Shown: positions 3,151-40,000 of the stretch, in pieces | Numbering within the stretch: position 1 is the first letter of the stretch | How the letters are laid out: every line of letters starts with the position of its first letter | From: Liolophura sinensis | Lineage: Eukaryota > Mollusca > Polyplacophora > Chitonida > Chitonidae | Reading direction: 5' to 3' | Assembly (NCBI RefSeq): GCF_032854445.1 | Contig: NC_088307.1 | Coordinates: 4,032,001-4,096,000, forward strand | DNA length: 64,000 nt | The notes under the pieces: model-generated | Database searches by the model: none | Told to the model about the DNA's origin: nothing | Seen by the model: the letters and a program-made list of their open reading frames with translations, nothing else | Position numbers and translations under genes: made by a program

Positions 3151-4902
3151 GTAAGGTGGGCTCAATATATTATGTGCATAATATCATGTCTGTTTAGTTT
3201 TTACAAGCATTGGTACATGAACTGTATTCTTATTAGTGATTATATTTGACAGTCTGCAGAAAAAGGGTGTATTTAACACTAATAAAAGGGACATTTTTAT
3301 GTTTAAGGGAAAAATGGAGCTAAAGTTCAGGAATGTTCAACTCTTGTACTGACTGCATAATGATGGGGAAGCAGGAGTTTACAAATGACATTGGATAGGG
3401 CTTGCATGGTTTTTAACTGCTGTTCTATGCTTAGTACAATGCGGGTGGTTGGGTGTGGGGGGAGAGGGGGGTGGGAATCATCAGATGCACCTAATTGGAC
3501 CAAGATATCCCTTATACATGTACACTGGAACTGTTTTCCTGTGGGCTCTCACTGTAATGATACAATAGTTAGACGGAGTTTTCTCCCAGTAAGTTATGCA
3601 GCACACCTGTAATAAATGGTGATATTTTCTAATGTGGGATATTATAAGATAGTGTTTCTTTGCAGAGATTTGTTTTTTTCTGTACTCTTTAAGATGTACT
3701 TGATTGGTCATGGTCACAGATTGGTTATGGTCACAGATTGCAAATTAATTGCTGGTTGTCATAGTTTCTCTGTCAAGAGACTATGCCTTAGATTTGCTAC
3801 AAACAATCGGTAATGGCTAATCAAATCAAACTTCAGCTATTCTTCCTGAATAAGCAAAATTATGACTTCTCAGAAATGCCACCCCCATTTTTGTACTGTT
3901 TACCGTTTTAAAAAAGCAGTAAAGTTTGTAAAAAGCTATAATTTGACTCGAATTAATCATTCGTAATGAACTCTGGAAGATAACATGTTATCTCTAAAAT
4001 GGACACATCCATGAAATCCTGGACTTCAGGAAACATGACTCACATATGAACTTGTCAGCACTTTGAAGTTCAGAAGGGATGAAATTTGACTGATCTTATT
4101 CTGTCTGTGACCAGAATTCTACAGATGTAATGACTCGAGAAACGTATTTATGACAATCCATTACCTTGATTAAGTACGGCGTGGAATTGACAATTTGACA
4201 TCATCAGCATTACCTGTATCGTTTTCTCCATAAAATTTTTACCCATCTGAGTACTTTCCTGGATAGTTTATTGGTTAATGCCAATTATAATGCATAAACG
4301 TAGTTTTTAACATGGAAACCATAAGCAACAGCAGCGTGCTAGGATTTAGTACACTGCGGATGGTCGTGGGTTTCCTGCAGGTTCCACCCACCATAATGCT
4401 CACCGCAGTCGTATAAGTGAAATATTCTTGAGTACGTTGTAAGACACCAATCAGATAAATAAATAAATTTAGTATAACGCGCAGCATAGCTCGCAACAGA
4501 CGCACATAAGTGTGTGTGCCATATGGTATTGCATTACTAGTTTAACAAAGGCTGCCACGTAATGGTGATGTGTATTGAAAGTTGTCTGCACTTTTTTTTT
4601 TTTTTTTTACAAAAATGAAATGACAACACCTTCTTCTGTGTTAAGGTAATTAAATATTGCCAAACTTCACTTTTTCTTTGCTTTACAGTTGTATTTGGGA
4701 CTGTCTGTATTAGCTGTACTTGATGTTTTGAATAAACTGGTAGGCTTTGTTACTCACAAGCAATACAAGTAAAGTCCTCAGATCAGACTGTGTGCCCAAA
4801 GCCTCAAATAATGGGGCAGCTCATGCGCACAGCAAATTATGTACACAATAATAGCATGGATGGCTGATGTTCATTTCTTGATTGTATATCTTACTTTTTA
4901 AG
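3151..4902 (+). other. Putative intron of the Helitron gene
   Basis: Runs from donor gtaagg at 3151 to acceptor-like tactttttaag ending at 4902. It contains a G-rich segment (about 3435-3475), a sense SINE (4320-4470) and a T run near 4590. No ORF here resembles a known domain. Confidence 0.35.
4320..4470 (+). mobile_element. SINE with (AATAAA)n tail
   Basis: Contains the family core: ggatggtcgtgggtttcc, ccaccataatgct, a 'cgtataagtgaaatattcttgagtac' segment, then caccaat and a taaataaataaa tail. About eight fuller copies and several fragments of this family occur in the window, all in this orientation. Confidence 0.8.
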
Positions 4903-7900
4903 GAGACAAAAGGGGATGGAAACGTATCAAAAAACAATGACAGTGACGAGTCTGGGACTGTTGGTTTTACAGAGATAAGTACAGTTTGTGGACATTTTCA
5001 TCAAGGACATCCACAATTTATGCCAAACAGTGGAGCACAATGTGTGGCTAATAGTTGCTCAGCTATTCTGTATGATAAAGTAAAGCCAGTTTCTATGTGG
5101 ACTAGTAATGATCTTGATGCTGTATTGATTTCTGGTGATGAATTGTACTCTAATGTTAAACCTAATCTTCCTGCTGGTGAGACCCATTTGCTCATTTCAG
5201 ACATTCCAGATGTGATGGACATGCACAATGGTACATTCGGTATAAGGGCAGGTGAATCTTTGACAGGTTATGTACTTGGTACTGTTCATGCAGATCTGCA
5301 ATCTGATATTTTCATGCCACTGAGAGATGCTCTTGAGAGAACACTATCTGTGTTTACTTCTTGCCTTATAACCTTCAACTCTTCTACATTTGCTATCATT
5401 AAACGAGACCAGTACTTATATGTTGTTGATTCTCATTCCAGGAATGTAGAAGGTGTACAAGTTGTTGATGGGACTGCTGTAAGCATCCGATACACAGGTC
5501 TAGAAGGGGTATTTCAACACTGTAGTCGTCTGGCTATTTCACTTAACACTGGTGAGTATGAACAGTTTGAGATTACTGGCGTTGATGTAGTTACTCATGA
5601 GGATCATGCTGATTCTGGTGATGTCATGCATGTACAGACTACATGGACATCTTTATCATTTAACCCACTGACAGATGAAGACCAAAGTCTAATGTGTACG
5701 AAGCTAGAATTGCAGAAATTACCAGAACTTGATGGTCTTGGATCATGCTCCTTCCTTGGTGAACCATGCAGGACAAAGAAGATTAAAATGGATGGGAACT
5801 GTTTTTTTAGAGCATTGTCTTTTGCAATATCTGGCACAGAGGAGAACCATAGACGACTGCGACTATTAACAGTAAAACATCTTCGGGAAAACTCAAGGCT
5901 CTTCTCCCCATACCTTCGAGATGGACATGTCACTGTAGAAAGCTATTTACAGTCATCGCAGATGAAGTATTTACATACATGGGCCACTGAAGTAGAAATT
6001 CTCGCAGCGTCAGACATGCTCCAGACTGACATCTACACCTACAGTGAATCATGGTTGTTGTTTTCCAAGTCTCAAGCTCGGGAGCAGATGAATAATTCAA
6101 CCAGGGCTATTTATTTACATCATGTTTCAAGTTGTCACTATGATGTGGTTATTTGTGTAAAAAATCAGTCATTAGATCTTTGTGCTGGAAATTGTTTACT
6201 GTGTAGTAACCATAGTACTGGAGGAATAAAAAGCATAACACATGTGAAATGTGAGGAAGATGACAACATTGTCAAAGGTGATGCAGTTGGTTCACGAAAA
6301 GACAACGGGAACAAATGGTTCTTTGGAAAAGAGTTGAAGAAGAAGCTACATCGTGAACATATCCAGCAGAAAAGGCTCATAACAGTGCATGACTGTACAG
6401 ATGTGATAAAGAAGCCATACGCGGGACTACAAGACACCAAGAAAGACCCAAACACATATGGTGCAAATGTGTCATACAGGAGACATATTTTGGCAGCTTA
6501 TAAAGAGAAATATGCCAAACCAGACTACAGGGAATCGGCAATCCGACAAGGCAAGCAGAGATACAGTAGTGATGAATTGTACCAAAATAGGATTAAGGCG
6601 TACAGCAAGGCCAAATATTTGTCGGACACCAAACATAAACAGAAGGTCAAAGCGTACAGCAAGGAGAGATATTTGTCAGACACCAAACATAAACAGAAGG
6701 TCAAAGCGTACAGCAAGGAGAGGTATTTGTCAGACACCAGGCATAAGCAGAAGGTGAAAGCGTATAGCAAACAGAAGTATTTGTCAGACACTAGACATAA
6801 ACAGAAGGTGAAAGCATACAGCCAGGCAAAATATATGACGGACACCAGACACAGAGAGATGGTGAAATCGTACAGCCAGGCAAAATATATGATGGACACC
6901 AGACACAAAGAGATGGTGAAAACATACAGCAAGGCAAAATATATGATGGACACCAGGCACAAAGAGAAGGTGAAAACGTACAGCAAGGCAAAATATATGA
7001 TGGACACCAGGCACAAAGAGAAGGTGAAAACGTACAGCAAGGCAAAATATATGATGGACGCCAGACACAAACAGAAGGTGAAAGCGTACAGCAAGAGAAA
7101 GTATATGGATGATGAGTTTAGGAAAAACAAGCAATCACAGCTGAAAAAAAAGTATTCAGAATCAAAGTCATACAGGAAAGATGTAATAAATAGACAGTTG
7201 GAACGCAGACGACAGAGAATAGCAGACCTTTCTTGTATTGATAGAGTAACATCTGTTTTTCAAAACTTAATAAGTGACGCACCACACCACGTATGTACAG
7301 TTTGTCATCGACGCTTTTTCAGAGGACAGGTTGTTATATGTAAACAGGAATCTTACTCACAAATAGGTCAACTGGCTGGAAAACTTGCTGCCAAATGTAT
7401 ATCAACAAGATACGTCCACACATGCTCTTCAGATTGCAATGTTCCCTGTATTATTTATCTATCTCCGTATTCCAAACTCTGGATTTGTTACACATGCCAT
7501 AGGAAGATCAGATCAGGCATTTTACCAGCTGAGGCATCTGTTAACAGTCTACAGGTAGAATGTGTGCCATATGAATTGTCTTGTTTGAACCAACTAGAGC
7601 AACATTTAATAGCAAAACATATTCCTTTTGCTAAGGTGGCAGCCCTTCCTAGAGGTGGTCAGAGAAGTGTCCATGGTCCAGTTGTTTGTGTGCCATCCAA
7701 CATTGACACAACAATTTCTTCTCTCCCAAGACCAGAGTCTGATGATCAGCTGATAAGGGTAAAACTCAAGCGGAAATTATCATATAAAGGGCATTATAGG
7801 TATCAGTTTGTAAACACTGCACGAATTGAAAAGGCACTTGAATATTTGAAAGAAAATAACCCACACTATCAAGATGTTAATTTCAACAACAATTGGGTTA

Positions 7901-10900
7901 ACAACTTGTCATCAGCAGGAAACGACAAAGAGAGTGATAATGATAGTCTACCAGATTTATGCAACAGTGAACAACCTAGCAGTAATGAGGGCGGAAAGAC
8001 TGATACGGGAAATGATGTTGAATACCTCGACTCAAGCCATACAGGAGATCAGGGGCTGATGATAGACAGTTGTCTGCAACCAGTTGACATAGGACAAGAA
8101 ATACTTGATCAGTTCGCAGATAATGTACTTTGTTTAGCACCGAGTGAAGGCAATGATCCAATTAGACTTCTGATGAATGAAGAAAATGAAGCAAAGGCAT
8201 TCCCTGTCTTGTTCCCTAAAGGATCACCGACATACCACGACAACAGAGAAAAGAAAATAACTATTTCACGCTATCTAAACACCAGGCTGATGCATGCAGA
8301 CTCCAGATTTGCCAAAAGTACTGAGTACATCTTTTATGCTCAGTATCTCTCAGAAATTCAGCAGGTACTTTCAACTGTCTCTATTGCACTGAGGAAAAGT
8401 CGTCAACCAGAGACTGAACAAAACATTACGATAAATAAACTCACCGATTATGACTCCTTGAGAGAAATCCTAAAGACTGACTCTGGATTCAAGTTCTTAA
8501 AGCCAATCCGAGGAACTCCAGCATACTGGCAATCTGCACAGAAGGATTTATTTGCTATGCTGAGACAACTTGGCATTCCGACATGGTTTTGTTCATTTTC
8601 TGCTGCAGATATGAGATGGTCTGAGTTTATTCAAGCACTGCTGGTGGAAGAAGGCAGTGATATTGACATTACTGATATGGACTGGTCAGCTAAATGTGAA
8701 TTGATCAGAGAGAACCCTGTTATGGCAGCACGGATGTTTGAACATCGATTTCAGTGCTTTTTGAAGGAATTTCTGCTGTCCCCTGCAAACCCTGTTGGGA
8801 AGATAATAGACTACTTCTACAGGGTAGAGTTTCAACACCGTGGATCACCACATACTCATTGCTTATTTTGGGTTGAAAACGCTCCCAAACTTGACCATAA
8901 CTCAGATGAAGAGGTGACCGCCTTCATTGACAAGTATGTGACGTGTGAAATGCCACCATCAGATGATGAAGTGCTGCAAGAGATCGTGTCCTCTGTACAG
9001 AAGCATAGTAGCCTTCATTCAAAGAGCTGTCGGAAAAAAGGTACGAACTGCAGGTTTAACTTTCCCAGACCACCAAGTATGTGCACATTCATCTCTAGGC
9101 CAAACTCTTCAGATGTTCACAACAATGATTGTAATGAAGCATCGATAGAAAGGGAGATGAATTGTGAAGAAGCTAAGGAAATCCTTGAAGCATTGTGGAA
9201 GGCTCTCTCAAATCAAGAACATGCTTTTGGAAACACAGAGGATTTGTTCACTACTGTTGGAATTAACCAAGATCAGTTCCAGGAAGCATACACAATGCTG
9301 TCAAAGCGGGCTAGTGTTGTGCTCAGACGGGGCGTGGATGATGTATGGTTGAATCAGTACAGTCCTGACCTTCTGCGCGCATGGAATGGGAATATGGATA
9401 TTCAGTTTGTGCTCGATGCTTACTCTTGCATTGTATACATTATATCATATATTTCTAAGTCAGAAAGAGAAATGGGTCTTCTTCTGGAACAGGCAAGAAA
9501 GGAAACTTTGAATGGCAATGAAGACACTAAACAGGCATTGAAGAAACTTGGAGCAGTGTATCTTCAGAGTAGGGAAGTAAGTGCTCAAGAGGCTGTGTTT
9601 CGAGTCTGTAACCTGCACTTAAAGGAATGTTCAAGATTTGTTCAGTTTATTCCTGTTGGTGACGCCATAAAGATGAGTCTGCCCCTGAATGTGATCCAAA
9701 ACAAGCTCAGTGGTGGTGATTTAAATGTAGATGATATGTGGATGACAAGCATAATTGACCGTTACAAGAACAGACCAGATGGTGATGAATTTGAAGTTAT
9801 GTGCTTGGCAACATTTTGTTCCGAATTCCGAGTTCTGCCCAAGTCAGAGAAAATTTCTAGGAAAGCTCAAAATGAGGGATTGGTACATAAACTGAGGAGT
9901 AACATGGGATACATTCGTAGAAGAACACAAACCAAACCAGCTGTGGTAAGATATCCAAGGTTTTCACCAGAGAATCAATCAGAGAAATATTTCCAGAGCA
10001 TTTTACAATTGTTTTTACCATACAGAACAGACTCACAGCTGAAACCTGATGGCTTTAATTCATTTGAATACTTTTTTGAGACCGGTGCGGTAAGTTTGCT
10101 GTGTAACACTAGAGTTGAGCTTGTCAAGGACATAGTTAACCGAAACAAGGCATCATTTGAAACAGATGCTGATCAAATCGCCAGAGCAGAGGAAATCCTT
10201 GAAATGGGTGGTCACTTAGAAGATGCATGGGCACAGATGTATCCTGAAACTGAAGCAGAAAGGATTTCTTGTTTTGAAGAAATTGAAGAGCTTGACGAGG
10301 TCCCTTGTGAGGCAAAAGACATACCAGATTTAGTACAGAATCAGAAGTCCGATTACACTGTTGAGCCTCAACGGGGAGATCTATTCGGGAATGAAGCAAA
10401 AGATCTTCTGCGATCACTGAATGAACAACAACTGGAGGTCTTCTACAAAGTTCGAAAGTGGTGTTTAGAAAAACTCAATGATCTGGACACAGAACCTTTC
10501 TATCTTTTCATCACGGGGGGTGCAGGAACTGGCAAAACCCATTTGATTAGATCTTTGCATTTTGAAGCCAACAGGCTTTTAGCACGGTGTTTGTCAAAGC
10601 CAGATGACACATCGATTTTAATAACAGCTCCGACAGGTGTTGCAGCTTTTAACATTGGTGCTTCAACCATTCACAGTACGTTTGGTATTCCTGTAGATGT
10701 AAAATTACCCTATCAGCCATTGGGAGAAGAAAAACTAAGCACGTTACGTTCAAAGTATAGCAGCCTTCAAATTTTAATTATAGATGAAATCTCTATGGTA
10801 GATCATAAGTTACTTGCTTACATCCATGGAAGGTTACGGCAGATCAAGCAGTGTAAAGATTACTCTCCATTTGGAAAAGTGTCTGTGATTGCTGTTGGAG

Positions 10901-11358
10901 ATTTCTATCAATTGCCACCAGTGAAAGGGAAACCTTTATACAAAGATGACATTGGATTTAATCTCTGGTCTGAGTTCAAAATAGTGGAACTAACTAAAGT
11001 GATGAGACAAAAAGATCAAAGCTTTGCAAATATGTTAAACCGTCTTCGTATCCGTAAAAAGACTGAGAGAATCACAGCTTCGGATATTTGTATGTTGACT
11101 GAGCGCGAGACCGGAGAAGAAGAAGGTGATATTCATATATTTGCAACAAATCAACAAGTTACAGAATTCAATCTCTCTAAATTGTCTCAAAGTGAAGAGG
11201 AAATTATTTCTTTTGATGCTGAAGACTTTGAGAAGGATCAAAGGACTGGAAAACTTCAGAAAAGAGACAATCAGTTCATAAGTACGATGTATTCTAATTT
11301 GCCCAGAAAACTGTCTTTAACAGTAGGAGCTCGAGTGTTACTTATGAAAAAACATTGA
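4903..11358 (+). CDS. Helitron Rep-helicase polyprotein, main part (C76-like, OTU, Rep, helicase start)
   Basis: Codons are numbered from 4882, where the open frame begins at TTG, probably inside intron. Domains in order: a C76/M48USP-like cysteine protease at about 35-235 (Gln41, Cys54 in SGAQC, Asp183-x-His185); an OTU protease at about 298-425 (Asp304-Gly-Asn-Cys307, His419); an 18-residue Lys/Tyr repeat at about 572-751; a Cys-rich DUF6570-like region at about 800-1000; a Helitron-like N/Rep domain from about 1120, with HUH at His1324-Thr-His1326 and Tyr1519/Tyr1523 before Lys1526; and a Pif1-family helicase with Walker A Lys1885 and Walker B Asp1968-Glu1969. Rep nicks and joins single strands and the helicase unwinds during rolling-circle transposition. 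The frame breaks at an A run (about 11345-11350) and helicase motifs V-VI continue in the next ORF. The domain calls are by eye. Confidence 0.88.
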   Translation, partial: ETKGDGNVSKNNDSDESGTVGFTEISTVCGHFHQGHPQFMPNSGAQCVANSCSAILYDKVKPVSMWTSNDLDAVLISGDELYSNVKPNLPAGETHLLISDIPDVMDMHNGTFGIRAGESLTGYVLGTVHADLQSDIFMPLRDALERTLSVFTSCLITFNSSTFAIIKRDQYLYVVDSHSRNVEGVQVVDGTAVSIRYTGLEGVFQHCSRLAISLNTGEYEQFEITGVDVVTHEDHADSGDVMHVQTTWTSLSFNPLTDEDQSLMCTKLELQKLPELDGLGSCSFLGEPCRTKKIKMDGNCFFRALSFAISGTEENHRRLRLLTVKHLRENSRLFSPYLRDGHVTVESYLQSSQMKYLHTWATEVEILAASDMLQTDIYTYSESWLLFSKSQAREQMNNSTRAIYLHHVSSCHYDVVICVKNQSLDLCAGNCLLCSNHSTGGIKSITHVKCEEDDNIVKGDAVGSRKDNGNKWFFGKELKKKLHREHIQQKRLITVHDCTDVIKKPYAGLQDTKKDPNTYGANVSYRRHILAAYKEKYAKPDYRESAIRQGKQRYSSDELYQNRIKAYSKAKYLSDTKHKQKVKAYSKERYLSDTKHKQKVKAYSKERYLSDTRHKQKVKAYSKQKYLSDTRHKQKVKAYSQAKYMTDTRHREMVKSYSQAKYMMDTRHKEMVKTYSKAKYMMDTRHKEKVKTYSKAKYMMDTRHKEKVKTYSKAKYMMDARHKQKVKAYSKRKYMDDEFRKNKQSQLKKKYSESKSYRKDVINRQLERRRQRIADLSCIDRVTSVFQNLISDAPHHVCTVCHRRFFRGQVVICKQESYSQIGQLAGKLAAKCISTRYVHTCSSDCNVPCIIYLSPYSKLWICYTCHRKIRSGILPAEASVNSLQVECVPYELSCLNQLEQHLIAKHIPFAKVAALPRGGQRSVHGPVVCVPSNIDTTISSLPRPESDDQLIRVKLKRKLSYKGHYRYQFVNTARIEKALEYLKENNPHYQDVNFNNNWVNNLSSAGNDKESDNDSLPDLCNSEQPSSNEGGKTDTGNDVEYLDSSHTGDQGLMIDSCLQPVDIGQEILDQFADNVLCLAPSEGNDPIRLLMNEENEAKAFPVLFPKGSPTYHDNREKKITISRYLNTRLMHADSRFAKSTEYIFYAQYLSEIQQVLSTVSIALRKSRQPETEQNITINKLTDYDSLREILKTDSGFKFLKPIRGTPAYWQSAQKDLFAMLRQLGIPTWFCSFSAADMRWSEFIQALLVEEGSDIDITDMDWSAKCELIRENPVMAARMFEHRFQCFLKEFLLSPANPVGKIIDYFYRVEFQHRGSPHTHCLFWVENAPKLDHNSDEEVTAFIDKYVTCEMPPSDDEVLQEIVSSVQKHSSLHSKSCRKKGTNCRFNFPRPPSMCTFISRPNSSDVHNNDCNEASIEREMNCEEAKEILEALWKALSNQEHAFGNTEDLFTTVGINQDQFQEAYTMLSKRASVVLRRGVDDVWLNQYSPDLLRAWNGNMDIQFVLDAYSCIVYIISYISKSEREMGLLLEQARKETLNGNEDTKQALKKLGAVYLQSREVSAQEAVFRVCNLHLKECSRFVQFIPVGDAIKMSLPLNVIQNKLSGGDLNVDDMWMTSIIDRYKNRPDGDEFEVMCLATFCSEFRVLPKSEKISRKAQNEGLVHKLRSNMGYIRRRTQTKPAVVRYPRFSPENQSEKYFQSILQLFLPYRTDSQLKPDGFNSFEYFFETGAVSLLCNTRVELVKDIVNRNKASFETDADQIARAEEILEMGGHLEDAWAQMYPETEAERISCFEEIEELDEVPCEAKDIPDLVQNQKSDYTVEPQRGDLFGNEAKDLLRSLNEQQLEVFYKVRKWCLEKLNDLDTEPFYLFITGGAGTGKTHLIRSLHFEANRLLARCLSKPDDTSILITAPTGVAAFNIGASTIHSTFGIPVDVKLPYQPLGEEKLSTLRSKYSSLQILIIDEISMVDHKLLAYIHGRLRQIKQCKDYSPFGKVSVIAVGDFYQLPPVKGKPLYKDDIGFNLWSEFKIVELTKVMRQKDQSFANMLNRLRIRKKTERITASDICMLTERETGEEEGDIHIFATNQQVTEFNLSKLSQSEEEIISFDAEDFEKDQRTGKLQKRDNQFISTMYSNLPRKLSLTVGARVLLMKKH
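6595..7134 (+). repeat. 54-bp in-frame tandem repeat coding 18-residue Lys/Tyr motif
   Basis: Ten copies of a unit of the form KAYSKxKYxxDTRHKxxV lie inside the Helitron ORF. The last copy is degenerate. Neighbouring units are nearly identical at DNA level, so the array is still homogenising. It is strongly basic, and a role in nucleic-acid binding or nuclear import is a guess. Similar Lys/Tyr repeats occur in other animal Helitron proteins. Confidence 0.9.
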
Positions 11359-11374
11359 TGTTTCCGATGGTCTT

Positions 11375-12499
11375 GTGAATGGAGTCTTTGGCACAGTCTC
11401 ACATATTCCATGTCCAGCAAGAGGTGAAGATGTACCAAATGTGATTTATGTTGTATTTGACAGTGACAGAGTTGGTACTAAGACGAGGAGAGAGAGTCAA
11501 ATCCCTGATTGTGTACCATCCAGCAGTACACCAATTCACCGGGTAGAAGATAGAGTGAGTGCACGTGGTGGAATCAGAAGACAGTTTCCGCTGAAGTTAA
11601 GTTATGCTTGTACTGTACACAAGCTCCAAGGTGTCACTCTTGACAGAGCAGTTGTTTCCCTGGACAAAATATTTGCTGCAGGCCAAGCTTATGTGGCGTT
11701 AAGTCGTGTGAGATCACTGGAGGGTTTGACCATTCAGGATTTTAAAGAGTCTGTTATTTATTGTAATGATAGTATTACTGAAGCACTCTTGTCTATGTCG
11801 CCTTTCATATCTGAAGACAACAATGACCAAGAAGCTAGTTTGGTGGAATTCAAGTTTATTCTTCATAATATACAAGGATTAAGATCTCATATTCATGACA
11901 TCAAAGGGGACAAAAGATTTACAACATCACATGCAATCTGTATTACAGAAACTTGGCTATCTTCTGATGAGTCAAGACAAGGACGATACCTAGAGGGATT
12001 CACATTCAACCATAAGACAAGAATTCAAAGCTACGATCAAAGCAATCCATTGTTCAAGGAGTTACAACAACAAGCACATGGAGGGGTTGGCATTTTTCAC
12101 AAATCTGATATAAAATGTGAAATGTTGGATCTCGCTATTCCTAACTTGGAGAGTATGGCATTTTACTTCAATGATCCAAACTTTGCCGTCATTGTCATTT
12201 ACAGGCCATTGTCTTATAGTCTTCCTATTTTCATACAAAATCTAGATAAACTACTGAAAAAACTGGTGAATCTTCCATATGGTTGTGCAGTAGTTGGAGA
12301 TTTCAATGAGAACATATTGAAGTCGAATGTCATTTCAAAACTGTTTGCCTCTTACCATTTTCAGCAGCTTGTGAAAGAACCAACCACAGAAAACGGGACA
12401 CTGATTGATCATGTTTATGTCAGACATGTCCATTTGAAAACAGTCAAAGTCATTCCGACTTATTTTAGCTACCACGATGCCATTATGTCCACATTATGA
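11375..12499 (+). CDS. Helitron polyprotein, C-terminal part (helicase motifs V-VI and APE-like endonuclease)
   Basis: This is the continuation of the preceding ORF, shifted by one base. Removing one A from the run near 11345-11350 would make it contiguous. Residues counted from 11375: helicase motif V (YACTVHKLQG, about 84-93) and motif VI (AYVALSRVRS), then an endonuclease/exonuclease/phosphatase domain from about 158. Visible endonuclease motifs are Asn165 in LHNIQG, Glu192 in ITETW, Asp309/Asn311 in VGDFNEN and a C-terminal SYHD at 365-368. APE-like nucleases usually have Ser-Asp-His at that last site, so Tyr366 is unusual. The ORF ends soon after this motif at TGA 12497-12499, as expected for an endonuclease at the C terminus. 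Confidence 0.85.
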   Translation: MNGVFGTVSHIPCPARGEDVPNVIYVVFDSDRVGTKTRRESQIPDCVPSSSTPIHRVEDRVSARGGIRRQFPLKLSYACTVHKLQGVTLDRAVVSLDKIFAAGQAYVALSRVRSLEGLTIQDFKESVIYCNDSITEALLSMSPFISEDNNDQEASLVEFKFILHNIQGLRSHIHDIKGDKRFTTSHAICITETWLSSDESRQGRYLEGFTFNHKTRIQSYDQSNPLFKELQQQAHGGVGIFHKSDIKCEMLDLAIPNLESMAFYFNDPNFAVIVIYRPLSYSLPIFIQNLDKLLKKLVNLPYGCAVVGDFNENILKSNVISKLFASYHFQQLVKEPTTENGTLIDHVYVRHVHLKTVKVIPTYFSYHDAIMSTL

Positions 12500-12639: not shown

Positions 12640-15600
12640 TAACAAAACAGTAATGGCTATGCTGCAACTGTATTCTGATGCTAAAGTGATATATGGCTGT
12701 CCAACTTATGGCTATACTACAAGTAAAGCAATAGTTTGAATACTGTCCTTCCACGCTGTACTCACAATAAAGCAGTACACAGCTATCATACTGCCTCGCT
12801 TCACTGAAACTCAAACAGTACCGGCTATTGTACTGCCTGGTTTTACTGAGACTGAAACAATACCAGCTATCGTATTGCCTGGATTTACTGAAACTAAACC
12901 AGTACCGGCTATTGTACTGCCTGGCTTTACTGAAACTAAAGCAGTACTGGCTCTTGTACTGTCTGGCTTTACTGAAACTGAAACAGTACCGGCTATCACA
13001 CTGCCTGGCTTTACTGAAACTGAAACAGTACCGGCTATCGTACTCCCTGAATTTACTGAAACTGAAACAGTACCGGCTATCCTACTACCTGGCTTTATTG
13101 AAACTGAAACAGTAACAGCTATTGTACTGTCTGGCTATACTGAAACTAAAGCAGTACCGGCTATCGTACTGCCTGGCTATACTGAAATTGAAACTGTACC
13201 GACTATCATACTATCTGGCTTTATTGAAACTGAAACAGTACCGGCTATCGTACTACCTGGCTTTACTGAAAATCAAAGAGTACCGGCTATCGTACTGCCT
13301 GAATTTACTGAAACTGAAACAGTACCGGCTATCGTACTACCTGGCTTTATTGAAACTGAAACAGTACCGGCTATCGTACTGCCTGGCTATACTGAAACTA
13401 AAGCAGTACCGGCTATCGTACTGCCTGGCTATACTGAAACTGAAACAGTACCGGCTATTGTACTGCCTGGCTATACTGAAACTGAAACTATACCGACTAT
13501 CATACTACCTGGCTATATTGAAACTGATACAGTACCGGCTATTGTACTGCCTGGCTATACTGAAACTAAAGCAGTACCGGCTATCGTACTGCCTGGCTAT
13601 ACTGAAACTAAAGCAGTACCGGCTATTGTACTGCCTGGCTATACTGAAACAGTACCGGCTATCGTACTGCCTGGCTATACTAAAAGTAAAGCAGTACCGG
13701 CTAATGTACTATCTGGCTTTACTGAAACAGTACCGGCTATTGTACTGTCTGGCTATACTGAAACTAAAAGAGTACCGGCTATTGTACTGTCTGGCTGTAC
13801 TGAAACAGTACCGGCTATTGTACTGTCTGGCTATACTGAAACTAAAGCAGTACCGGCTATCGTACTGCCTGGCTATACTGAAACTGAAACTATACCGACT
13901 ATCATACTACCTGGCTATATTGAAACTGATACAGTACCGGCTATTGTACTGCCTGGCTATACTGAAACTAAAGCAGTACCGGCTATCGTACTGCCTGGCT
14001 ATACTGAAACTAAAGCAGTACCGGCTATTGTACTGCCTGACTTAACTGAAACAGTACCGGCTATCGTACTGCCTGGCTATACTAAAAGTAAAGCAGTACC
14101 GGCTAATGTACTATCTGGCTTTACTGAAACAGTACCGGCTATTGTACTGTCTGACTATACTGGAACTAAAAGAGTACCGGCTATTGTACTGTCTGGCTGT
14201 ACTGAAACAGTACCGGCTATTGTACTGTCTGGCTATACTGAAACTAAAGCAGTACCGGCTATCGTACTGCCTGGCTATACTGAAACTGAAACAGTACCGG
14301 CTATTGTACTGCCTGGCTATACTGAAACTGTACCGGCTATTGTACTGTCTGGCTATACTAAAGCAGTACCGACTATCGTACTGCCTGGCTATACTGAAAC
14401 TAAAGCAGTACCGGCTATTGTACTGCCTGGCTTTACTGAAACTAAAGCAGTACCGGCTATCGTACTGCCTGTCTATACTGAAACTAAAGCAGTACCGGCT
14501 ATCGTACTGCCTGGCTATACTGAAACTAAAGCAATACCGGCTATCATACTGCCTGACTATCCTGAAACTAAAGCAGTACCGGCTATCGTACTGCCTGGCT
14601 ATACTGAAACTAAGGCAGTACCAGCTATCGCTCTGCCTGGCTATACTGAAACTAAAGCAGTACCGGCTGTCGTACTGCCTGGCTATACTCAACCTAAAGC
14701 AGTACCGGCTATCGTACTGCCTGGCTATACTCAAAGTAAAGCAGTACCGGCTATCGTACTGCCTTGCTGTACTGAAACTAAAGCAGCACTGGCTATCGTA
14801 CTGCTTGGCTATACTGAAACTAAAGCAGTACCGGTTATCATGCTGCTTGGCTATACTGAAACTAAAGCAGCACTAGCTATCCTACTACCTCATTTCACTG
14901 AAACTGAAACAGTTCCGGCTATCGTACTGCTTGGCTATACTGAAACTAAAGCAGTACCGGTTATCATACTGCTTGGCTGTACTGAAACTAATGCAGTACT
15001 GGCTATCGTACTGCCTGATTTCACTGAAACTGAAACAGTACCGGCTATCGTACTGCTTGGCTATACTGAATTTAAAGCAGTACCGGTTATCATACTGCTT
15101 GGCTATACTGAAACTAATGCAGTACCGGCCATCGTACTGCCTGGCTATTCTGAAACGAAAGCATTACCGGCTATCGTACTGCCTGGCTGTACTGAAACTA
15201 AAGCAGTACCGGCTGTCGTACTGCCTGGCTATACTGAAAGTAAAGCAGTACCGTCTATAGTAATGCCTGGCTATACTGAAACTAAAGCAGTACCGGCTAT
15301 CGTACTGCCTGACTTCACTGAAACTGAAACAGTACCGGCTATCGTACTGCCTGACTTCACTGAAACTGAAACAGTACCAGCTATCGTACTGCTTGGCTAT
15401 ACTGAAACTAAAGCAGTACCGGTTTTCATACTGCTTGGCCAAACTGAAACTAAAGCAGTACTGGCTATCATACTGCCTGGCTATACTTAAACTAAAGCAG
15501 TGTTCGCTATCGTACTGCCTGGACTTACTGAAACTAAAGCAGTACCGGCTATCGTACTGCCTGACTTTACTGAAGCTAAAGCAGTACCGGCTATCGTACT

Positions 15601-16185
15601 GCCTGACTATACTGAAGCTAAAGCAGTACCGGCTATCGTACTGCCTGACTATACTGAAACTAAAGCAGTACCGGCTATCGTACTGTCTAGCTATACTGAA
15701 ACTGAAACAGTATCGGCTATTGTACTGCCTGGCCATATTGAAACTAAAGCAGTACTGGCTATCATACTGCCTGGGTAAACTGAAACTAAAACAGTACGGG
15801 CTATCGTACTGCCTGGCTATACTCAAACTAAAGCAGTACCGGCTATCGTACTGCATGGCTATACTCAAAGTAAAGCAGTGCCGGCTATCGTACTGCCTGA
15901 CCTTGCTACAAGTAAAGCAGTGCCGGCTATCACACTGCCTTACTATGCTACAAGTAAAGCAGTACCGGCTATCGTACTGTCTGGCTATATTGAAACTGAA
16001 AGCAGTACCGGCTATCGTACTGCCTGGCTGCAGTGAAAGTAAAGCAGTACCGGAAATTGTACTGCCTAACTATTTTGAAACTAAAGCAGTACCAGCTATT
16101 TTACTGCTTGGCCATATTGAACCTAAGGCAGTATCGGCTTTCATACTGCCTGAAACCCAAGCAGTGCAGGCCATTGTGCTAAAAC
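12640..16185. repeat. About 3.5-kb 42/36-bp minisatellite, open in several frames
   Basis: Roughly 80 units of 42 bases (some 36 or other lengths), consensus around gcagtaccggctat-cgtactgcctggctatactgaaactaaa. Both edges are degenerate. One frame would read VPAIVLPGYTETKA repeats for 871 codons up to a TAA at 15488-15490. A second stop lies at 15776-15778 and a one-base insertion near 15998. Other frames on both strands are also open over long stretches because the unit length divides by three and the unit lacks stops there. The long ORF starts at TTG, has almost no ATG and shows no domain. I call it non-coding satellite, perhaps linked to the Helitron 3' region. Confidence 0.85.
12766..12771 (+). 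other. Candidate polyadenylation signal of the Helitron gene
   Basis: Canonical AATAAA 267 bases after the endonuclease stop codon. It lies at the degenerate edge of the following minisatellite. Confidence 0.3.
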
Positions 16186-34000: not shown

Positions 34001-37000
34001 TGCTTCTTTTATAACTGAGAAGTTTCCATAAATGGATTGTAATTTCTGTAGTGCTGGATAACAAATGTTCTTTGTTGGTTTCAGACAACAGTAAAAATGT
34101 ATCAGAAGTGTGTGTATCGCGACAACGACTGGAAGATCTCTACAAGAAAGTACTGCTCATTGACCTGGAGTATGCTCTGGACAAGAAAGTGGAACAAGAA
34201 CTGTAAGTAGCCTGTCCAGAAACCTCACGCTACACATAAAAGTTGACCAGGAGCTATAAGTAGCTGGTAAAAGGAACATACAGCTGTATTTAGCCTGTAT
34301 AAAAGTTGAACAAAAGCTGTAGTTGCGTGTTATAAAGGAAATTAAAGTAATATTTACCATTAAAGTAATAGTTTACCAACAGCTGTATCCAATAATGGAG
34401 ACAAATTCACTATTTCAGTACAGAAAAACTTACACAAGGGTTGTAAAATGACCTCTCAAGAAATCTTGCTCTGGAAAACAGAGTTAATCAAGAGCTATTA
34501 ATAGCTGGTAAACAAAATGTACTCTAGACCAAAAAGTTGAACAAGAGCTTTAAGGGGTCTGTCATGGAAACTTGCTCCGGACAAAAAAGTTAGAAAGTGG
34601 CTGTAAGTAGGCAACTTGAAATAAATGCTTGTTACTACATTTTAATACTTTTTGTGGAGCAAGTTGTTGCAGACAGGTGATTAGGATTTTACATTTTGTG
34701 TGCTTCTGTAAGATGCGTGTTTATTTAGTGAGTCCAATTAAATAACATGGATGATAAAGAAGCAAAGTTTGAATCCTGTTAGTTGGCTTTTTTTCAGATG
34801 GAATCATGCCTTTAAGAATCAGATCAACATACTTCAGGCCCAGGCTAAAGACAAGCAGGTACGGCAAATGTTACTGAGTTCGTTCAGAGGAAAATGTCCC
34901 AGGTCTTCCAGGTCATCAGTCGCTGTCTTAAACCTAGTCAAACTTATCTCTCTGTGGCAATAGTACAGTTGTGTCGAATGTGCTACCCACCAGCAGATTG
35001 TGGCAAACGCTTCGCATAGCTGGAACCCTGATAAACCAGTGCGGTTTTGTCTCTGTTTCTAATACCATCCTAGATACATGGATCACGTGACATGTTTGCG
35101 TGACATGTATTAAATAGTCGTTTCTTGTTTCCCATTTAGAACCCAAAGAGGACTGAAATTCAAGCCACTTTGAACCTTTTTCTGGAGATGGCAAGTGGGG
35201 TGTATTTGCAGGTATGATGTTGGAGTATGCAGAAGATCATGCTGTGATGTATATCTTCTGATGTAAATTACATATAAGAAATATATAAATAAATAAAATT
35301 AAATTCATGAATAAATTGCAGTGCATATTAAAAATATTAGGGTAAAACTTAAGGCTTTACTGTATTGACAATATTACTTGTGTTTTCATATGCAAGGCTG
35401 CCTAAATGGCAACGAAAATTATCTTTGAATATAGGGTAACACTCAAGACCTTGACATATAGTAACAGAATTATTTGTATTAAGCTGTCTTTCGATTCTTA
35501 GTACAGCTTGGTCACCTGATTACTTTCTGTTTCAGCTTTTGCAGCTGATATGCTCAACGTTTAAGCTTGACTTGCCTTTTAGAAGGAAGTCTTCAACATA
35601 TGGGATAATGAAAGGTAGGTGGTTCAAACGGTTTTGAAAATTGATCAAACCACTGTGGCAGAGGGGTTAGCATGCTAGCGCTGCACAATGACATCAGGAG
35701 CCTCTTACCAATGCAGTCACTGTAAGCTCAAGTCCACGGACTCATGCTGGCTTCCTTTCCGGTCATGTGGGAAGACCTGTCAGCAGACTGTGGATAGTTG
35801 TGAGTTTTCCTCAGCCTCTGCTTGGTTTCCTACCACCATACTGCTGAATGTCATGGTATAAGTGAAATATTCTTGAGTAGGAACGTGAACTCCAGTGAAA
35901 TAAATAGATTAGTTGTATGTTGTTAATTAATAAAACCAATACAAATGGTGCATAAAGGTAGTGCTACATTATCTTAATTTACTAGCAAAGTTTTGCCTAC
36001 TATGCAAGAAAGAAACTAAAACTTATTGATGCTTTATTTGATGTATTGACGTATTCACAATGAGTGTATTTTGGTAGCAACTCTTGATGCCGAGGACGAA
36101 CCCCTGACAATTGAGGCGTTGTGTTTGAGTCCAGTTTTAGTTGCTTCACCTGTGTCCTAAAGTGGAGAGGTTTGCCGGGTAGCTAGCAAGGTGTGGTTGT
36201 TTCCTTAGGCTGTGTGATAAAGTTTCCTCCACTCCTAAACCTGACTCTCATTGCATTCTTGAATATGGGGCTCTGGCTGAGATGTAAGATACATCGACCA
36301 CAACTTATTCCATGTTTGAAGCACCTCCTGTATTCATGGCTTAACAGAGCTGTTTGTCTACCACAGAATGGAGTCCATCAAAGATGAAGATCAACCCTCC
36401 AAAGAAGAGCTCCTGTCTATACATCTGTCAGTATTGCCTAGTCCACCTGGGGGATATCGGTAAGGATAGCACTGGTGTGACGTCTGTCAATATTATCTAG
36501 TCCACCTGGGGGATATAGGTAAGGATAGCACTGGTGTGACATCTGTCAATATTATCTAGTCCATCTGGGGACATAGTTAAGGATAGCTTAGGCGTGGCAT
36601 CTGTCAGTATATTCTATTCCATCTGGGGGATATAGGTAAGGATAGCACAGGTGTGACATATGTCAATATTATCTACTCCATCTGGGGACATAGTTAAGGA
36701 TAGCTTAGGCGTGACATCTGTCAGTATATTCTAGTCCATCTAGGGGATGTAGGTAAGGATAGTACAAGTGTGACATCTGTCCAGTGCATCTGGAGGACAT
36801 AGGTAAGGATAGCACAGGTGTGACATCTGTTTAGTGCACTCGGTGGCATAGGTAAGGATAGCTTAGGTGTGACATCTGTCAATATTATCCTGTCCATCTG
36901 GGGGACATAGGTAAATATAGTACAGGTGTGACATCTGTCAATGTTGTCTAGTCGATCTAGGGGCTGTAGCACAAGTGTGACATTTGTCCGGTGCATCAGG

Positions 37001-40000
37001 GGACATAGGTAATGATTGCAAAGTGTGACATCTGTTTAGTCCACCTGGTGACATAGGTAAGGATAGCACAGGTGTCACTAGGTGACAGTATTGTCTAGTC
37101 CTACTGGGAGATGTAGGTAATGATAGTACAGGTGTGACATCTGTCAGTATATTCTAGTCCATCTGGTGGATATAGGTATGGATAGCTCAGGTGTGACATC
37201 TTTTTAGTCCACCTGGTGACATAGGTAAGGATATCACAGGTGTGACATCTGTCGGTATTGTCTACTCCTACTGGGAGATGTAGGTAAGGATAGTACAGGT
37301 GTGACATCTGTCAGTATATTCTAGTCCATCTGGTGGATATAGGTATGGATAGAACAGGTGTGACATCTGTCAATATTGTCTAGTCGATCTAGGGGATATA
37401 GGTAAGGTTAGCACATCTCTCAAGTGCATCTGGGGGACATACATAAGGATAGCTCAGGTGTGACATCAGTCAGTATTGTCCTATCCATCTGAGTAAAGTA
37501 GGTAAAGATAGCACCGGTGTGACATCTGTTTAGCTCACGTGGTGACATAGGTAAGGACAGCACAAGTGTGACAGCTGTCCAGTGCATCTGGGGGACATAG
37601 GTAAGGATAGCACAAATGTGACATCTGTCCAGTGCATCTGGGGGACATAGGTAAAAATAGCACAGGTGTGACATCTGTTTAGTCCACCTGGTGACATAGG
37701 TAAGGATAGCACAGGTGTGAAATATGTCATTATTGTCTGGGAGATGTAGGTAAGGATAGCACAGGTGTGAAATATGTCATTATTGTCTAGTACATCAGGG
37801 AGATGTAGGTAAGGATAGCACAGGTGTGTCACTATTGTCTGGTCTACCTGGGGGATATAGTTAAGGATAGCACAGGTGTGACATCTGTCAATATTATCCT
37901 GTCCATCAGGGTAATGTAGGTAGGGATAGCACAGGTGTGACATCTGCCAGTATTGTCTAGTCCATCTGGGAGGTATAGGTAAGGATAGCACAGGTGTGTC
38001 AATATTGTCTAATCCACCCGGCGGGATATAGGTAAGGATATCACAGGTGTGACATCTGTCAATATTGTCTAGTCCATCCAGGGGACGTATGTAAGCATAG
38101 CACAGTTCACCTGGGAGCATTGGGAAGGATAGAGCAGGTAACTCTGTCTGCTATCTCTGATATCAACAGCCTGAAAAGAGACCAATGTGAACTCAGCAGA
38201 GATCCTACCGTGTCATACATGGATTGCAAAGTTGGTGTACAGGATCATAGGAGGATGAAACGCATCCAGTTTAAGCTTATGTTAACTGGGTTCCCATTTT
38301 ATGGACTGAGCCTGTTGCTGTCAGCTTTTTGGTTTCTAAACCAACCGACTCAGTTAGCAAGATTGACTTTCCTGATTGTTGCGTATACAAAGCTGTAATC
38401 CCTCTGGCACCATGTTTGTGTGTCACTCACTTTTTGCTTTCTCCTGTTCAAGCCCGGTACAGACAACAGGTAGACCAGGCCCAGTCATATTACTGGCACG
38501 CTGCCCATCTTATCCCTGTCAATGGTATGTACTACTTTGAATTTTCATCATGCACCGAGGGTTAACTGGTTAGAGCATCTTGCTTTTCAAATGCCTTGTC
38601 ACCAGAGATGTAGGCCCAGTATTATACTAGCATGGGGAATCTTCCAAATTCTCCTGCGTCTATCATTCTTGGAGGCTATGTGTCAAGAAACAGTTGACAA
38701 TATTATTTGGTGTCATCATATATGAAGTTCAGTGGAGATCATCAGTATGAAATGTCACATGTTTAAAAGTTTGCCAGTATGGGCACTCTAGTTTTCTCCA
38801 CCCATAAACTGGCTTCCATCCTGTAAGTGAAAAATTCTTGAGCATGGTGTTAGGCAACAATGAAAAAAATCGATCATAAAGGGGATTCCCACTTGAGTCC
38901 TTAGTATGGCTTTTCCACGCTTATGAAGTTACATGCACAGATCCAGGGCTCGTCAGCTGTGGTTTTTGGGGTTTTTTGTTTTTTTTTTGTTTTTATATTT
39001 TGTGTATTTTCTTTTCTTTAATGTCAATCGAACTAAGCCTTGACTCTCTTTATCTACAATAAATGCAAAGGTATTCTAGCAACATGCTTAGGGTCGTGGG
39101 TTTCCCCCGGGCTCTGCCTGGATTCCTCCCACCATAATGCTGGACACTGTCATATAAGTGAAATATTCCTGAGTATGGCGTAAAACACCAATCAAATAAA
39201 TAAATAAATCAGTAATTCCATAAATATCAGCTAACACTGTACTGAACTGTTTCAGGCCAGCCCTACAACCAGCTGGCCATTTTGGAGGTTGCCAGGGGTA
39301 ACAAGCTGTCCACCATATTTTACTACATCCGGAGTTTGTCTGTTCGTCACCCATTCCCAGCAACAGCCACAAACCTCGAAAAATTCTTCTCAAAGATTTC
39401 CAGGGAAAGGTAACTCTTTAAGTACTTGAGTTATGAGGACCATTTTTTCAGTTTACACAGAAGAGCATTAACAAATACTTGATGGAATTTTAGGGGTTTG
39501 GGTCATGAATGAAAGATTGTGGCTGAACGACACTTTTACAGTCATGAAGCCAACATTTAATACTGCTTGCATGTTATATTACTTCTTGAGATTTAAGGAA
39601 ATGGAGAATTGTTTAATTTTGAGTTGTATAAAGATTTATACAAAGATTTATGCTAACTTCATAATTGCATTTCCTCTTAGAACTGAGTTCAAGTCCAAGT
39701 TATCCATGACAGAGTTTTTGACAGCCTTTCTACAGTTCCATGCTTTCATCCATCTGTGTGTGGGTAAGTACTATTAACACGTTTTGTCTGTGGCATTGGA
39801 AACCTGGAAAAGCCTGGAAATTAAGAGTAACTTTTCCAGGTTAGTTTGTGATTATAGCTCCTAGCGACCTTATATTATATAGGTCTGAAAATCAACTTTA
39901 AGTGAAGTACTTACATGTATCTTATCTTACATGTTTGTCCTCAACCCATAAACTGTGCTGCCAGCATATAAATGGCATATGGTGGCTGCATGGCCTATAG

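Follow-up and report, generated by a model that had tools for sequence, protein, structure and literature searches.

The chiton Liolophura sinensis carries, in one intron of its gene for SMG7, a factor of nonsense-mediated mRNA decay (NMD), a minisatellite made of tandem copies of the end of the preceding exon together with its 5' splice site. The intron lies in a window of 64,000 nucleotides (nt) on contig C13 (NC_088307.1, positions 4,032,001 to 4,096,000) of an assembly comprising 609,464,459 bases in 632 contigs, and positions given without a contig refer to this window. The 632-scaffold assembly was initially named Liolophura japonica (PMC11068029), a name corrected to L. sinensis (PMC12441733). 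The assembly is based on PacBio HiFi reads with a mean length of 8.3 kb at 14X (PMC11068029), so the 1.7-kb array should be spanned by reads. The features of the locus are given below, a slash marking the splice junction and TRF standing for Tandem Repeats Finder.

36367..36459, + strand: SMG7 exon, numbered 7 in an earlier note on this DNA, ending ...CTG GGG GAT ATC G in phase 1 (translation, match to 1ya0)
36421..36479, + strand: first unit of the array, 39 exon and 20 intron bases (nhmmer unit 0)
36460..36465, + strand: real 5' splice site, TCG/GTAAGG (frame continues LGDI/ARYR; 5.84 bits, U1 pairing -8.7 kcal/mol)
36480..38139, + strand: tandem array of 31 junction-unit copies, each 59 nt or, where shortened, ~49-50 nt (nhmmer, TRF)
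36498..36500, + strand: in-frame TAG met when the real donor is skipped
36519..36524, + strand: first extra donor, TAG/GTAAGG, 59 nt downstream of the real donor
38453..38524, + strand: next SMG7 exon ("exon 8"), acceptor ...TGTTCAAG/CC, end AATG/GTATGT
39252..39410, + strand: the SMG7 exon after "exon 8", with the EST1_DNA_bind match (PF10373); the exon start appears to be at ~39256

The gene call of the earlier note holds. When joined, the exons at 36367-36459 and 38453-38524 match residues 139-185 of human SMG7 (1ya0) with E=1.3e-17, the reading frame LGDI/ARYR running across their junction, and the exon after 38453-38524 matches PF10373 with E=1.6e-13; PF10374 gives a weak match (E=0.865) to the exon at 36367-36459 alone. 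Judged by these matches, the host gene of the array is SMG7. Within its intron, nhmmer finds 32 units over 36421-38139, namely the exon's own and 31 copies behind it (E-values 1.1e-6 to 8.6e-21), in line with the roughly 30 copies of the earlier note. The full unit of 59 nt joins a 39-nt exon part (36421-36459) to a 20-nt intron part, several copies having an exon part reduced by about 10 nt, and 83% of the intron is tandem repeat. The copies are degenerate, with GT intact in 25/31, GTAAG in 17/31 and GTAAGG in 16/31, and TAG precedes the donor position in 28/31; many donors are thus intact, as had been claimed. Any longer form of exon 7 would truncate the protein, again as the earlier note had read it, because the in-frame TAG at 36498-36500 lies upstream of the first extra donor at 36519.

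Donor strength was scored with a matrix of 135 donors called in the chiton genome and chosen by consensus score, of which at least two (those of loci L069 and L070, described below) were later found to have been called one unit too far; the percentiles are rough. On this scale the real donor TCG/GTAAGG, with 5.84 bits, stands at the 19th percentile of the 135 donors, and TAG/GTAAGG, with 8.73 bits, at the 57th. The suggestion that the latter fits U1 better is borne out by the pairing energies (-9.9 kcal/mol versus -8.7 for the real donor), and pairing is better than that of the real donor in 17/31 copies.

Selection on the copied donors was assessed from the agreement of the 31 copies with their consensus, which averages 0.927 over the donor columns (-3..+6) and 0.926 over the intron tail (+7..+20); in the exon part of the copies the means are 0.938 for the outer and 0.775 for the middle columns. 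GT is kept in 25/31 copies against 26.6 expected from the drift of the intron tail, and GTAAGG in 16/31 against 19.5. As the donor columns tie with the intron tail, we read these values as no donor-specific selection; none is visible among the copies, in what is a weak test. The exon itself, compared with the 17 full-length copies, differs from 17/17 at positions -23 and -2 and from 16/17 at -14, and all of these differences are synonymous third positions (TGC versus TGT, ATC versus ATA, CAC versus CAT), which suggests that the change took place on the exon side, probably as drift within the code once the array existed. Polarised in this way by the copies rather than by an outgroup, the weaker real donor may be a derived state.

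Junction arrays are not confined to SMG7. Other genes of the chiton were sampled through the best candidate matches to the myosin head (81) and kinesin (132) domains, of which 146 of the 213, in 120 regions, were taken, rows with internal stops and some others being left out. The donor was callable at 135 of these 146 exon matches and the acceptor at 113. The automatic test, for a local copy across the junction with a score of at least 25, was positive at 3/135 donors and 3/113 acceptors. Sites with a high score or an array near the junction were read by eye in a subset of the 120 regions, which added L069, whose donor call had overshot by one unit, and L125, where the array lies ~60 nt into the intron and the automatic score was 19; L035, an automatic hit at an acceptor, was dropped as the start of its array is unclear. 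Once the automatic survey had been read by eye, junction-derived minisatellites stood at 5/135 donors and 2/113 acceptors:

L069: donor side, 30-nt unit
L070: donor side, 63-nt unit
L115: donor side, 31-nt unit
L119: donor side, 66-nt unit
L125: donor side, 32-nt unit
L131 (C2:5378150-5379010): acceptor side, 32-nt x 11
L037 (C9:4627330-4628570): acceptor side, 27-nt x 14

The arrays of L131 and L037 consist of the 3' splice site and first exon bases, and precede myosin and kinesin exons. On the donor side, the real donor outscores every copy in L070 and L115, half of the copy donors equal it in L119, two of three exceed it in L069 and six of seven equal it in L125. In L115 and L125, two of these five cases, an in-frame stop is met before the first copied donor. 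Of the first arrays met on the donor side (n=19), 15 begin within 300 bases after the exon end and 4 within the final 40 bases of the exon; these 4 include L069 and L070 once their donors are corrected. Local copies were present at 40/438 control points in the survey regions, points that are not independent of one another, so junctions are hit less often than points within introns, yet at a few per cent. The pattern is as if arrays arose anywhere and were retained where the exon survives as the first copy. Minisatellites are abundant in general: at a period of at least 10 and a score of at least 80, TRF rows take up 16.9% of the window and, in the 120 survey regions, 8.3%.

The stretches read at an SMG6-like locus on C10 and an SMG5-like locus on C8, which we take to be SMG6 and SMG5 on the basis of motifs, contain no TRF row, and the SMG5-like intron at the LGDI position has no array. 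With arrays in motor genes and none in these SMG5- and SMG6-like stretches, the structure is no special mark of an NMD gene. A phase-1 intron at LGDI appears to be common to the SMG5-like gene (L156, C8:44882210-44884150) and SMG7 (at 36460). A genome-wide enrichment of AGGTAAG (3 x AGGTAAG at 47-67 nt, 1177+1204 versus 851+483 for the reversed motif) is not claimed, since large arrays supply many of the ~100 places listed. Given the 28,010 protein-coding genes predicted in this chiton (PMC11068029), rough extrapolation from the sample of two gene families points to thousands of junction minisatellites in the genome.

Tandem repeats over exon-intron boundaries have been described in amphioxus under the name of mirages, at four loci or gene families: Adh3, with units of 10-72 nt, globins (BflGb6/9), with units of 150-160 nt, PGBD5, with units of 60 and 108 nt, and troponin C (PMC3087553, PMC3902484). 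Their length varies among haplotypes and even somatically, and Adh3 data together with reverse-transcription PCR of globins suggest that splicing is undisturbed, though AG/GT are kept in many copies (PMC3087553, PMC3902484). The SMG7 array is a mirage-type junction minisatellite, and hence of a known kind: like the minisatellite-like boundary copies at the 5' and 3' sites of amphioxus, it has a unit (59 nt, within their 10 to ~160 nt) that crosses the exon-intron boundary with 39 exon and 20 intron bases, it keeps splice signals in many though not all copies (GT in 25/31), and arrays of the same sort occur in several genes of the chiton, at 5' and 3' sites alike. It differs from the amphioxus cases in its mollusc host, in its 31 degenerate copies within one intron and in being known here from sequence alone. 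Splice signals are also copied where introns are gained by tandem genomic duplication, as in potato RNA-dependent RNA polymerase (RdRp), but there the duplication is associated with intron gain, whereas in SMG7 an existing intron has been filled (PMC4974935). The abundance of such arrays in a mollusc is apparently new in print; no molluscan junction minisatellite was recognised in titles and abstract openings, which is not proof of absence in print, and the excerpts on earthworm metallothionein (PMC12783039) and on chiton genomes (PMC12005716) hold nothing on junction arrays.

We consider it highly probable that the SMG7 array is a near-neutral junction minisatellite of the mirage type, tolerated because exon and donor are left intact as a first copy that stays a working splice site. 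To the anatomy, stop codon, donor strengths, lack of donor-specific conservation and junction arrays in unrelated genes that are directly observed, the following course may be fitted. The last 39 exon bases and first 20 intron bases of SMG7 would have been duplicated in tandem, and the array would have grown to 31 copies towards the intron, like the minisatellites in many of the sampled chiton introns. Growth on the intron side would spare the exon and its donor. These would form the first copy, whose donor presumably continues to be the one chosen in splicing. The copies would then drift near-neutrally, their donors showing no sign of being favoured or disfavoured by selection, possibly with some leakage into the extra donors that is removed by NMD. 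By analogy, the amphioxus mirages, reported to leave splicing undisturbed, suggest neutrality here as well (PMC3087553, PMC3902484).

Several points weigh against this explanation. When all donors are scored with a splice-site model, a check proposed in the earlier note, the real donor of SMG7 proves weaker in bits than 21/31 copies, weaker variants counted, unlike the real donors of L070 and L115, which makes leakage plausible. The donor window ranks 2nd in conservation among 51 nine-column windows, and conservation within such an array has limited power as a test, since exchange between copies homogenises the units. Tandem repeats of the exon end with several 5' splice sites, in a unit of 12 nt, are also found in human IFI6 (6-16). 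Two of its downstream repeat units act as donors (PMC4526556, citing Turri 1995) and give isoforms, which by analogy argues for some use of the chiton copies, though the IFI6 unit is shorter and in SMG7 the longer exon has a stop. Together, the donor scores and the minisatellite donors in use in IFI6 favour leaky noise, in which extra donors would be used at a low, unregulated and erroneous level and NMD would clear the products; it overlaps the near-neutral explanation and differs from it in rate. Against it stand the amphioxus mirages, reported to be normally spliced (PMC3087553, PMC3902484), and we hold it to be a close call that falls slightly on the doubtful side.

The earlier note had gone further and proposed a donor sink or NMD rheostat, in which controlled use of the extra donors would yield exon-7-extended mRNAs with the TAG at 36498, to be removed by NMD, so that SMG7 would tune itself. 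Part of its background stands: a feedback loop acting on the mRNAs of NMD factors is in print, with SMG7 mRNA up in HeLa cells after depletion of DHX34 or NBAS (PMC3783168), and plant SMG7 transcripts are NMD targets via a long 3' untranslated region (3'UTR) with introns (PMC3711448). The part that does not carry over is the means, since the features described for NMD-factor mRNAs are long 3'UTRs or upstream open reading frames, not extra donors, and SMG7 is not among the transcripts named for UPF1 depletion in the excerpt (PMC3783168). At the locus itself, every extra donor meets the same stop and most copies outscore the real donor, but the donor columns are conserved no better than the intron tail, GT and GTAAGG are kept slightly less often than drift predicts, motor genes carry similar arrays and the SMG5-like gene has none at the same intron position. 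What possibly speaks for regulation is the shape of the locus and nothing beyond, and a rheostat appears very unlikely. We give as little credence to a wider feedback reading, in which a few per cent of splice sites would bear junction minisatellites, with thousands of tandem decoy donors and often stop-containing isoforms as the outcome, while leakage at SMG7, its real donor left weaker than most copies by synonymous drift, would set the level of SMG7 via NMD in a feedback loop.

Acceptors inside the array were judged by a matrix from 111 acceptors, whose 5th percentile is 5.16 bits and in which the exon-8 acceptor, at 6.83 bits, stands at the 14th percentile. The weakest proposal, that the copies provide acceptors (tctag) as well as donors and so give rise to 18-nt in-frame micro-exons, as the earlier note had thought possible, or to intron gain on the mirage model published for amphioxus globins (PMC3087553), is extremely improbable: the pattern TAG...18 nt...GTAAGG is present, for example upstream of the donor at 36519, and an AG at 37799 (7.4 bits) even exceeds the exon-8 acceptor, but the 22 TAG/T acceptor sites of the intron reach at most 2.27 bits, which makes 18-nt micro-exons unlikely, and the AG at 37799 would give an exon of only ~10 nt.

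Four arrays among the places of the AGGTAAG pattern (L004, L017, L018, L021) are not preceded by an evident coding exon, going by open frames alone. In L018, at 1458-1719 (C1:1329071-1329332), the unit joins a pyrimidine-rich AG to GTAAGA, and the array resembles tandem zero-length-exon (recursive splice) sites. Elsewhere in the window, 4882-12496 holds a Helitron-type element with a 2158-amino-acid open frame matching Helitron_like_N, PIF1 helicase, OTU and DUF6570, followed by an overlapping frame of 383 amino acids with an Exo_endo_phos match. A 54-nt unit repeated 9.4 times at 6598-7107, within the Helitron frame, is apparently an 18-residue coding repeat, and a minisatellite of 42 nt x 82 lies directly behind the Helitron frames, at 12768-16152. 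Rfam at gathering scores returned no matches over the whole window. A search for the GFP family, as a test for amphioxus, was likewise empty, a result that is no proof of absence. In the wider assembly, contig C99 (L001-L003) carries seven COX1 matches at steps of ~15.5 kb, one of them shorter, and C632 a single one; mitochondrial DNA has probably been assembled on C99 as a head-to-tail concatemer.

The presence of mirages at ~4% of the sampled chiton donors suggests a by-product of genomes rich in minisatellites rather than a peculiarity of lancelets. Mirages set up natural experiments on splice-site choice in conserved genes, with series of nearly identical donors, some of them stronger, downstream of the functional one, which deep RNA data of this species could read out, and they are relevant to proposals that introns originate from tandemly copied splice signals.

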